A stretch of 10,805 nt of DNA from an uncultured Eubacteriales bacterium (GTDB taxonomy: Bacteria; Bacillota; Clostridia; Lachnospirales; Anaerotignaceae), in assembly GCA_959604475.1 (NCBI GenBank), contig CAUHBX010000012.1:1-10805 (forward strand). The letters run 5' to 3'. Positions 3,857 through 5,455 of the stretch are shown here, one piece after another. The position numbers and the translations under genes were made by a program. Under the pieces are notes generated by a model, which made no database searches, was not told the origin of the DNA, and saw only the letters and a program-made list of their open reading frames with translations. Position 1 is the stretch's first letter. Every line of letters starts with the position of its first letter.

Positions 3857-3885
3857 TTGACGTAAAGTTTTCAAGCGCATATACT
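3857..3885 (+). promoter_or_regulatory. promoter of the mgtE leader
   Basis: TTGACG (3857-3862) and TATACT (3880-3885) match the sigma-A consensus at 5 of 6 positions each, with an exact 17-bp spacer. The start should lie near 3892, so mgtE has an unusually long leader of roughly 210 nt before its start codon. Confidence 0.75.
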
Positions 3886-3925
3886 AATAAGAGACAAATT
3901 TTTTTCAGACAAGGGGTGCTTTTTT

Positions 3926-4036
3926 ATGGACTTAGACGGCCATCCGGACGACGTTCCGTTGTACATAACACACATAGCTTGGCCGAACAAAGCCTGTAAA
4001 AATCCGTCTGATTTTAATTCGGAGTTTTATTTTTAA
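3926..4036 (+). CDS. 36-residue leader peptide upstream of mgtE
   Basis: ATG at 3926 opens 36 codons ending in TAA at 4036. The Shine-Dalgarno GGGGTG (3913-3918, within AAGGGGTG) leaves seven bases before the ATG; the same hexamer serves mgtE itself. The peptide begins M-D-L-D-G-H-P-D-D-V-P, continues L-Y-I-T-H-I-A-W-P-N-K, and ends F-N-S-E-F-Y-F. It has no signal peptide or membrane segment and resembles no protein I recognise. The early Asp/Pro-rich run recalls the acidic/proline leader MgtL of enterobacterial mgtA, where such codons make translation Mg2+-sensitive; the analogy is mine. The stop lies 17 nt before the terminator stem. Its first codons overlap pairing segment 1 and its Ala-Trp-Pro codons (18-20) overlap segment 2, as in attenuators. 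It could also be a chance frame. Confidence 0.6.
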   Translation: MDLDGHPDDVPLYITHIAWPNKACKNPSDFNSEFYF

Positions 4037-4052
4037 TAATTCTTTGACTATG

Positions 4053-4080
4053 GCCAAACAATAGTGTTATGGCTTTTTTT
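4053..4080 (+). terminator. terminator inside the mgtE leader
   Basis: GCCAAACA (4053-4060) pairs with TGTT-A-TGGC (4065-4073, one bulged A) around an ATAG loop. Seven Ts follow (4074-4080). It lies between the leader peptide stop and the mgtE start, on the transcript from 3892, so it only makes sense as a conditional terminator for mgtE. Its stem is of moderate strength, which suits switching. Confidence 0.7.
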
Positions 4081-4105
4081 AATTCAAAGAATTGGGGTGG
4101 ACAAA

Positions 4106-5455
4106 GTGGATGACATGGAGGCTATATACAAACAGCTTCTTGACCTTCTTGATAATGGAAGAATAAAGGAATTTAAGGAAGAAATTAATGAATTAAACCC
4201 GTATGACGCCGCTGAATTTTTCGAGCTTCTTAAAGATGACCAAAAGCTGATTGTGTTCAGCCTCCTTACAAAGGACAATGCGGCGGAAGCGTTCAGTTAT
4301 ATGGACTCCGACATTCAGGAGCACATTATTAAATCAATAGGCGACAATGAGATAAGGAATATAGTGGACGAAATGTTCATTGATGATACCGTTGATTTCC
4401 TCTCTGAGCTGCCGGCGAACCTTGTGACAAGGGTTTTGAGAAACGCCGATGAATCCAAACGCAAGCTGATTAACCAGTTTTTAAATTATCCGGAAAACTC
4501 GGCCGGAAGCATAATGACAATTGAGCTTGTCCAGTTTCATGAGGATATGACCGCAAGCCAGGCAATGGCGCAGCTTAAAGCTACGGGCGTTAATAAGGAG
4601 ACAATATATAACTGCTATGTAGTAAACAGCAAGCGTATACTTATGGGTATACTTCCGCTGAGGACACTGATACTCGCAAAGGACGAAGAAATTGTAAAAG
4701 ACCTTATGGAGGACAGGGTAATATCGGTTAAGACACTTGACGACCAGGAGGAAGTTGCGGATATCTTTAAAAACTATAATTTCATAAGCTTGCCCGTTGT
4801 GGATAATGAAGGCCGTTTGGTCGGTATTATAACAGTCGATGACATCATGGACGTTATTGACCAGGAAAATACCGAGGACTTTGAAAAGATGGCCGCCCTC
4901 CTCCCTTCCGAGGATGAGTATCTTAAAACCAGCGTTTTTACCCTGACCAAAAATCGACTTCCATGGCTTTTGGTACTTATGATTTCAGGCACCATTTCAG
5001 CCTCTATAATAAGCAGGTACCAGTATGTGCTTACTTCTGTTCTTGCCCTCTCGGCTTATATGACAATACTTACCGGCACCGGAGGAAACTCAGGCTCCCA
5101 GGCTTCTACCCTTATCATCCGCGGTATGGCGCTTGGCGAAATTGAGATGAAGGACATATTCAAAACATTGTGGAAAGAGGTTCGTGTCGGTATACTGTGC
5201 GGTATCATGCTTGGCCTTGTAAATTTCATAAGGCTTCTGTTTTTTGACAACGTCTCCATGCTTGTAAATGTTACAGTATCGTTTACAATGGCCGTTGTAG
5301 TTGTAGTTGCCAAGGCCATAGGCTGTACGCTTCCCATGCTGGCAAAAAAAATAGGCTTTGACCCAGCTATTATGGCCGGCCCCCTTATCACAACGGTTGT
5401 TGACGCCATATCCCTTTTGATATATTTCAACATAGCAAATATACTTTTATTATAA
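4106..5455 (+). CDS. mgtE: MgtE-family magnesium transporter
   Basis: Mg2+-selective channel/transporter of the cytoplasmic membrane, gated by Mg2+ bound to its cytoplasmic domains. Domain order is as in characterised MgtE. A helical N domain covers about 1-128. A CBS pair covers about 130-255, with the N-S-A-G-S-I-M-T entry at 131-138. A connecting helix leads to five membrane helices from about 285. T-G-T-G-G-N-S-G-S-Q (323-332) and D-P-A-I-M-A-G-P-L-I-T-T-V-V-D (419-433) are the conserved pore signatures; D433 matches the selectivity-site Asp of Thermus MgtE. I chose GTG at 4106 (449 residues) because GGGGTG at 4094-4099 sits six bases upstream. ATG at 4115 (446 residues) is possible but 15 bases from that site. 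An in-frame GTG at 4064 lies in the terminator loop. Expression is probably controlled by the upstream attenuator-like leader. Confidence 0.95.
   Translation: MDDMEAIYKQLLDLLDNGRIKEFKEEINELNPYDAAEFFELLKDDQKLIVFSLLTKDNAAEAFSYMDSDIQEHIIKSIGDNEIRNIVDEMFIDDTVDFLSELPANLVTRVLRNADESKRKLINQFLNYPENSAGSIMTIELVQFHEDMTASQAMAQLKATGVNKETIYNCYVVNSKRILMGILPLRTLILAKDEEIVKDLMEDRVISVKTLDDQEEVADIFKNYNFISLPVVDNEGRLVGIITVDDIMDVIDQENTEDFEKMAALLPSEDEYLKTSVFTLTKNRLPWLLVLMISGTISASIISRYQYVLTSVLALSAYMTILTGTGGNSGSQASTLIIRGMALGEIEMKDIFKTLWKEVRVGILCGIMLGLVNFIRLLFFDNVSMLVNVTVSFTMAVVVVVAKAIGCTLPMLAKKIGFDPAIMAGPLITTVVDAISLLIYFNIANILLL

Follow-up and report, generated by a model that had tools for sequence, protein, structure and literature searches.

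A conserved leader peptide as the probable sensor of a transcription attenuator upstream of mgtE in a family of Clostridia

The window, by which we mean the whole 10,805-nucleotide stretch of DNA that was analysed, carries on its forward strand an mgtE gene (4106..5455) whose product contains the MgtE_N, CBS and MgtE domains (Pfam PF03448, PF00571 and PF01769) and whose likely start, judged from the Shine–Dalgarno sequence GGGGTG read directly at 4094..4099, is the GTG at 4106. In front of it lies an unannotated ORF of 36 codons (3926..4036, forward strand) that runs from ATG to TAA, encodes the 36-residue peptide MDLDGHPDDVPLYITHIAWPNKACKNPSDFNSEFYF and is kept as protein in relatives. The earlier note had described this frame and a Shine–Dalgarno sequence GGGGTG seven bases before its ATG; the frame is exact as given and the ribosomal binding site is present at 3913..3918 on the same strand. 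By itself the length of the ORF is unremarkable, the window containing 83 ORFs of at least 30 aa. A consensus scan finds a sigma-70-like promoter further upstream (TTGACG-17 nt-TATACT, 3857..3885, forward strand, 10 of 12 positions matching), and both hexamers are seen again in L001 and L002, the two closest loci, whose MgtE proteins are 86 and 87% identical to that of the window. Provided that this promoter is used, the transcript should start about 20 nt 5′ of the leader Shine–Dalgarno sequence. The leader ORF is separated from mgtE by an intrinsic terminator (4052..4081, forward strand) composed of a hairpin at 4052-4074 and a T run from 4075; its stem has a bulge, and it is missing from the consensus-scan list. 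A terminator nearby had been correctly anticipated, but at 17 nt from the ORF, while the hairpin begins at 4052, 15 nt past the stop codon. A perfect 10-bp inverted repeat, AATTCTTTGA/TCAAAGAATT (4038-4047 and 4084-4093), flanks the terminator and stops just 5′ of the mgtE Shine–Dalgarno sequence.

Throughout, the family is that of L002 (Candidatus Metalachnospira gallinarum), represented by 58 genomes, 50 of which have an mgtE match at E ≤1e-120. On direct reading, 48 of these 50 carry a Shine–Dalgarno-led ORF beginning with M[DE] before mgtE; the Shine–Dalgarno sequences of the relatives are not independent evidence, because their leaders were picked as ORFs led by such a sequence. As for the other two genomes, the contig of G010 stops 89 nt upstream of mgtE, and G008 has a leader profile match preceding the first of its tandem mgtE copies, of which the C-terminal part was read. 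Counted by locus (the window plus 53 family mgtE loci), the M[DE] ORF occurs in 49 of 54 and is combined with an [IV]P[LR] motif in 37 of 54; the five loci without it are four second mgtE genes (L095, L104, L132 and L136) and L121, where the contig ends 89 nt upstream. Among the 48 family leaders, 36 have [IV]P[LR] at residues 6-18 and 12 are without the motif. As a background we used 957 unique ORFs of 12-70 aa with a Shine–Dalgarno sequence and an ATG, taken from the flanks of L003-L113; a single one combines an M[DE] start with [IV]P[LR] at residues 6-18.

The conserved peptide core of the window, MDLDGHPDDVPL, spans codons 1-12 (3926..3961, forward strand) according to the alignment and the codon test, and the same-place leaders of L001 and L002 start with MDNTGYSDDVPLC.. 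and MDNVGLPDDIPLY.., respectively. Comparison of 40 cores gave 840 single-base codon differences, 509 synonymous and 331 nonsynonymous, i.e. a synonymous share of 61% where 21% is expected, an about threefold excess. The core differences by codon position 1, 2 and 3 number 623, 622 and 1206, position 3 being changed about twice as often as either of the others. These figures are pair counts over 224 same-length pairs, in which events are not independent, and the whole-codon spacing of the core was excluded as evidence because the cores were read in frame. The usual core can be written M[DE]xG..[SR]..[IV]P[LR], with D/E and I/V swaps; no run of one codon is kept across the leaders, and past the core both the sequence and the length of the peptide vary freely. 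In L089, L090, L096 and L098, MDGSGSS or MEDSGSS is kept and IPL is lost, so that IPL appears to be dispensable in places. The codon test and the background count together rule out a chance ORF. As the earlier note had supposed, the frame is conserved as protein: a check of the relatives for frameshifts and stops produced none that speaks against it, and synonymous codons are in excess.

Within the core, most serine codons are AGT or AGC, and the core is often succeeded by CGA, both in family leaders and beyond. These biases look conserved, and a codon-level or RNA-level constraint may be added to the one acting on the peptide. Such codons, kept apparently beyond the need of the amino acid (AGT for Ser, CGA past the core), would also be expected if the leader were an unrecognised Mg2+ riboswitch and the conservation of the ORF a by-product of RNA conservation. 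We regard this as very improbable, given the third-position excess, the D/E and I/V swaps, and the fact that an Rfam search at E up to 1 returned nothing at the mgtE gene of the window but a sub-threshold and implausible snoRNA match on the opposite strand. In particular, RF00380, the M-box, is matched nowhere in the window at E up to 1. Only one Rfam match of the window exceeds its curated threshold, a SAM riboswitch (RF00162, 82.7 bits) at 2416-2518 before metK, which is ordinary. Among related loci an M-box was detected in one (L133) of the 34 family leader loci scanned with Rfam (48 in total), in two (L142 and L195) of the 58 scanned loci of the same order outside the family (60 in total), and in none of 20 distant loci scanned. 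At L133 (205-640) and L195 (122-590), an M-box with a terminator-like hairpin is followed by a leader ORF (MDKIDSSSSVPVGRLC.. and MDGECSGQGINRNRKKK.., respectively) and then by mgtE, a configuration in which two Mg2+ devices are possibly arranged in series. At L133 a CCTCC past the ORF can, by eye, pair with the mgtE Shine–Dalgarno sequence GGAGG.

The association of the leader with mgtE is specific. A profile made from 27 mgtE leaders of the same kind gave 32 matches at E <1e-3 in the 58 family genomes, one per genome, and 31 of them lie 93-244 nt upstream of an mgtE match while the 32nd is that of G008 before its tandem mgtE copy; weaker matches are scattered and uninterpretable. A DNA pattern search of the same genomes found nothing (0/58), the pattern being too strict. 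At greater distance, a Shine–Dalgarno-led M[DE] ORF was seen in 34 of the 75 assessable loci of L003-L080, which belong mostly to other Clostridia, and 23 of these also have [IV]P[LR]; MDDGERCQASDTVPRS and MDEGGRCLTTEGVPRS are examples. In the same order outside the family, the M[DE] ORF is found in 17 of 58 assessable loci (60 fetched among the matches listed), and the full core in none of these 58. Taken by group, these counts describe an element that nearly all of the family has, that is frequent in certain other Clostridia and that is patchy between the two. When 16 leaders were searched against a protein database, 54 matches at E up to 1 were obtained, the sole name given by a source being 'hypothetical protein [Tyzzerella sp. 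An114]'. Open-licence PMC papers, a scope that leaves most subscription papers and preprints outside, contained no account that we could find of an mgtE leader peptide in Clostridia.

Two further kinds of leader were observed in passing. One belongs to a second MgtE paralogue (28-30% identity to the MgtE of the window in G001, G002 and G004), which has its own leader ORF in five of six carrier genomes. The paralogue leaders (L083-L085 and L201-L205) sit about 260-375 nt upstream of the paralogue gene, no such ORF being seen at L204, and their start resembles that of the mgtE leader (MDNCGSCGQHMIDRHNI.., MESCGSCGRCKSDRHIL.., MDNGQSSSYHS.. and MDGSHGRSQNN..); three of them contain Cys and DRH residues, which could hint at another metal. 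L056, L071 and L080, from Treponema, Spirochaetia and Spirochaetaceae, have a different Shine–Dalgarno-led ORF before mgtE, with a common stretch DSDPYGS.

The RNA of the window contains four segments that could form alternative pairings, all read on the forward strand. Strand 1, CGGCCA at 3937..3942, is an anti-antiterminator predicted by the folding model to pair with 3980-3985 when the ribosome is absent. Strand 2, TTGGCCG at 3979..3985 (codons 18-20), is the putative antiterminator, its TTGGCC pairing with GGCCAA at 4052-4057. Strand 3 is the 5′ arm of the terminator, GGCCAAACA at 4052..4060, identified by the hairpin call and the complementarity test described below, and strand 4 is the 3′ arm at 4065-4074. 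A further segment, specific to the window, is CATAACAC at 3964..3971; when the ON state is modelled, it pairs with GTGTTATG at 4064-4071 of the terminator 3′ arm.

How far this arrangement is shared depends on the group considered. Of 82 leaders, 62 were assigned a terminator-like hairpin (44 of 49 from the window and family and 18 of 33 distant ones), the remaining 15 distant leaders having none called. Twelve of the 62, six from the family and six distant, had weak or misplaced automatic terminators and were dropped by hand, which left 50 leaders, 38 from the window and family, on which the family-level pairing tests and ribosome models draw, and 12 distant. Where P-[LPRV] is lacking the end of the core was set at codon 10. 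Over the 50 leaders, the ORF past the core pairs with the terminator 5′ arm with a mean energy of −14.8 kcal/mol, compared with −11.4 for swapped ORFs and −10.7 for shuffles, and 24 of 50 fall in the best 5% of their shuffles. The terminator 3′ arm, taken as a control, gave −9.05 kcal/mol with its own ORF and −9.04 with swapped ones, with 3 of 50 leaders in the best 5% of shuffles; an antiterminator acting through the 3′ arm is thereby ruled out as a general rule, although the model of the window itself still uses it. Restricted to the window and its 37 family leaders, the strand 2:3 pairing reaches −15.7 kcal/mol versus −10.3 for dinucleotide shuffles (p 2.4e-10), beats the shuffle mean in 36 of 38 and is in the best 5% in 24 of 38; in 21 less redundant leaders, 20 beat the shuffle mean (p 5e-6). 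No such signal is seen in the 12 distant leaders whose terminator was accepted, one being in the best 10% of swapped ORFs and none in the best 5% of shuffles. Since the distant leaders lack the 2:3 signal and 15 of 33 have no called terminator, the attenuator is supported in the family only.

An alignment of 15 leaders from one clade allowed the 2:3 helix to be followed column by column (rows L117 and L122 are too short for the ORF start, but their helix columns are complete). The helix is paired in 95.8% of the cells, against 15-45% for slid versions, RNAalifold picks the same helix unprompted, and the column pair 132-206 is UA in eight and CG in seven of the 15 leaders. None of 500 shuffles reaches the covariation score or the number of cells with a change on either side of the pair at once; by two other counts the native alignment does not stand out, 270 of 500 shuffles reaching its number of pairs with a both-side change and 404 of 500 its number of further pair types. 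The longest helix run starts at least 17 nt past the core in 38 of 38 leaders, compared with 16% of 1380 swapped pairs that start nearer, the medians being 34 and 35. Strand 1:2 is weak as a duplex: 22 of 38 leaders are better than the shuffle mean (p 0.008), and 5 of 38 are in the best 10% of swapped partners, which is near chance. The comparison of relatives supports conservation at the protein level, association with mgtE and the pairing of strands 2 and 3. The free variation of the peptide past the core, while its RNA stays complementary to the terminator, is difficult to reconcile with an action of the peptide in trans, be it as a small MgtE partner or otherwise. Such a role would account for conservation as protein, but the peptide is without a Pfam match and we give this explanation hardly any weight.

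The dependence on the ribosome was explored with equilibrium folding models, i.e. without co-transcriptional folding or pseudoknots. In ribosome-free RNA the mean probability of the terminator, P(terminator), is 0.77 over the 38 leaders and 0.93 in the window, where P(1:2) is 0.98; in L081, L107 and L111 the modelled RNA lacks the terminator when no ribosome is present. With the early region shuffled, the mean drops from 0.77 to 0.59, the native value being higher in 35 of 38 leaders (p 1.8e-7), and the window drops from 0.93 to 0.10; with the late ORF shuffled, the ribosome-free mean is 0.80. With a ribosome footprint placed on successive codons of the leader ORF in the window, P(terminator) is 0.0-0.2 with the P-site at codons 1-8 and 0.8-0.9 at codons 9-23, with exceptions further on (0.6 and 0.3 at codons 24-25, 0.0-0.1 at codons 28-32, 0.9 at the last three codons). 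In the same scan over 38 leaders, a drop in termination of at least 0.3 is seen in 17 with the footprint at codon 1; the number declines to 14 at codon 4, to 8 at codon 6 and to 2 at codon 8, and past codon 8 it never exceeds 2. The modelled ON fold of the window contains two nested helices, one between 3964-3971 and 4064-4071 and one between strand 2 and the 5′ arm, which hide both arms of the terminator. A ribosome at codon 4 gives the window a terminator probability of 0.001, against a mean of 0.75 with a shuffled late ORF, and 17 of 200 such shuffles reach 0.05 or less. Across 37 leaders (one further was dropped here, its terminator overlapping the ORF), termination with the ribosome at codon 4 is 0.53 for native and 0.80 for shuffled late ORFs, native being lower in 30 of 37 (p 1.4e-6). 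The effect of strand 1 and, in up to 17 of 38 leaders, the dependence on ribosome position are supported within these models.

Our first model had placed the footprint on the P-[LPR] codon, where it had no effect (1 of 38 leaders). A ribosome stalled on [IV]P[LR] was therefore rejected as the ON state and the codon scan used instead, and a model removing all RNA 5′ of the stalled ribosome was also discarded, as it overstated the effect. Masking the RNA from the start through the motif lowered termination by at least 0.3 in 16 of 38 leaders, in the window only to 0.81. The lack of effect at the P-[LPR] codon implies a hold point earlier than [IV]P[LR], or two queuing ribosomes. That the motif lies later than the modelled hold point could reflect such a two-ribosome queue or the limits of equilibrium folding.

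Taken together, we favour, with a probability of roughly 0.6, a model in which the leader peptide encoded by the ORF is conserved, acts in cis and serves as the sensor of a transcription attenuator before mgtE, with an early-held ribosome as the ON state and low Mg2+ as the presumed holding signal. The locus has an ORF with a synonymous excess upstream of the gene, an intrinsic terminator between the two and, in the family only, an antiterminator derived from the ORF, the translation of which is itself predicted from sequence. During normal passage of the ribosome, or with no ribosome at all, strand 2 would be covered or paired with strand 1, the terminator would form and mgtE would be off. 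A ribosome held on the first eight or so codons would cover strand 1 and leave strand 2 to pair with the terminator 5′ arm, and this pairing would permit read-through past the terminator and switch mgtE on. Low Mg2+ would exert this hold by way of the nascent chain, which is acidic and contains the M[DE]xG..[SR]..[IV]P[LR] core. Control by the nascent chain appears likely because the N-terminus is acidic and the core conserved, and we infer Mg2+ as the signal from the nature of the gene, from the precedents of MgtL and CorL, and from the succession of M-box and ORF in L133 and L195.

The acidity of the leaders is pronounced. The first 16 residues contain on average 3.1 D+E in 49 window and family leaders and 3.4 in 37 distant leaders, while the mean for 146 background ORFs is 0.58. 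An acidic pair within the first 20 residues, its members adjacent or one apart, occurs in 22 of 49, 32 of 37 and 8 of 146, respectively. The 37 distant leaders are a chosen set and not a sample, since their start sites were picked by eye (43 sites, less three paralogue and three Treponema/Spirochaetia leaders). The description of the leader as Asp/Pro-rich, made by the earlier note, holds for the window, whose peptide has D-x-D and D-D close to prolines, but does not extend to the family as a common feature, the usual core being M[DE]xG..[SR]..[IV]P[LR] and the acidic pair being confined to 22 of 49 leaders.

N-termini so much more acidic than background, and the D-x-D and D-D of the window near prolines, recall the enterobacterial MgtL, whose ribosome leaves at EPDP with the result that mgtA is switched on, according to PMC11282234. 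By analogy, low Mg2+ might act on the acidic nascent chain to cause ribosome drop-off, upon which the freed RNA would refold and allow read-through, and the close relative L081, modelled without a terminator when the ribosome is absent, would suit this scheme. It is an unlikely one in our view, as on average the ribosome-free RNA is predicted to form the terminator and the acidic pair is absent from 27 of 49 leaders. Drop-off alone would leave the gene off, because the absent ribosome corresponds to the OFF state in the folding models of the window. The proposed analogy with MgtL can thus be retained for function but not for architecture. The modelled pattern, with an early hold giving ON and an absent, advanced or finished ribosome mostly OFF, follows attenuator logic, and the models favour early arrest or slowing at low Mg2+ over drop-off of the MgtL type.

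The RNA model requires just a ribosome that is slow early in the ORF, and slow initiation or a shortage of tRNA or energy would do as well, in which case the leader would be a general sensor of translation with Mg2+ involved indirectly or not at all. Sensing of this kind occurs in a Mg2+ transporter operon, where mgtP and mgtM sense proline and ATP, as reported in PMC3641672. We nevertheless consider it improbable here, since generic sensing does not require a peptide core with a synonymous excess and no single-codon run is kept. The preferred reading, an early hold of the ribosome at low Mg2+, might be extended, as a tentative suggestion in which we place clearly less confidence, to a Clostridia-wide family of ribosome-based Mg2+ sensors, in which an M[DE]xG..S..-type chain, at most about eight residues long, would stop or slow down the ribosome when Mg2+ is low and so flip the four-strand attenuator of mgtE, similar starts (MDNCGS.., MDGSHG.. 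and MDNGQS..) serving the second MgtE paralogue.

In amino-acid attenuators of the trpL type, four strands pair as 1:2, 2:3 or 3:4, the position of the ribosome is the input and an intrinsic terminator the output. The model proposed here shares this logic, input and output, but differs in having no single regulatory codon run, a modelled hold within the first eight or so codons, and an ion transporter gene as the regulated target. With MgtL it has in common a short acidic, proline-containing leader ORF before a Mg2+ importer, the inefficient translation of which is reported to switch the importer on in the enterobacterial case (PMC11282234 and PMC11552253). Compared by description, the core here is M[DE]xG..[SR]..[IV]P[LR] where MgtL has EPDP, and an MgtE transporter and an intrinsic terminator are found where the same papers give Rho for MgtL, with the ribosome-free RNA modelled as OFF. 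CorL of enterobacterial corA is similar in that translation of its uORF is inversely related to a Mg2+ transporter, but, again compared by description, it is Rho-dependent and belongs with another transporter family (PMC11552253). Also comparable are mgtM and mgtP, the two short ORFs of the Salmonella mgtCBR leader, which work in cis as transcription attenuators of a Mg2+ transporter operon; they answer to ATP and proline, mgtP with three consecutive Pro codons (PMC3641672), whereas no codon run is kept here. In Bacillus subtilis, Mg2+ control of an MgtE-type transporter is exerted by the M-box (ykoK, RF00380; PMC12810186), which is lacking in the window and found in 1 of 34 scanned family leader loci. 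A leader element before mgtE is also known from Thioalkalivibrio, where the 'mgtE motif', a riboswitch candidate of one genus, is a structured RNA that includes the mgtE Shine–Dalgarno sequence; that genus belongs to another phylum, and the excerpted text of PMC11109978 mentions no uORF for the motif. If our interpretation is correct, it would account for the control of mgtE without an M-box in gut Clostridia of this leader's family and would provide a natural sequence set that could show which kinds of nascent chain are sensitive to Mg2+. All Mg2+-linked leader peptides of which we found published accounts (MgtL, CorL and mgtM/mgtP) are enterobacterial, and a different, conserved leader peptide before a different transporter in Clostridia would mean that gauging Mg2+ by means of the ribosome has evolved more than once.
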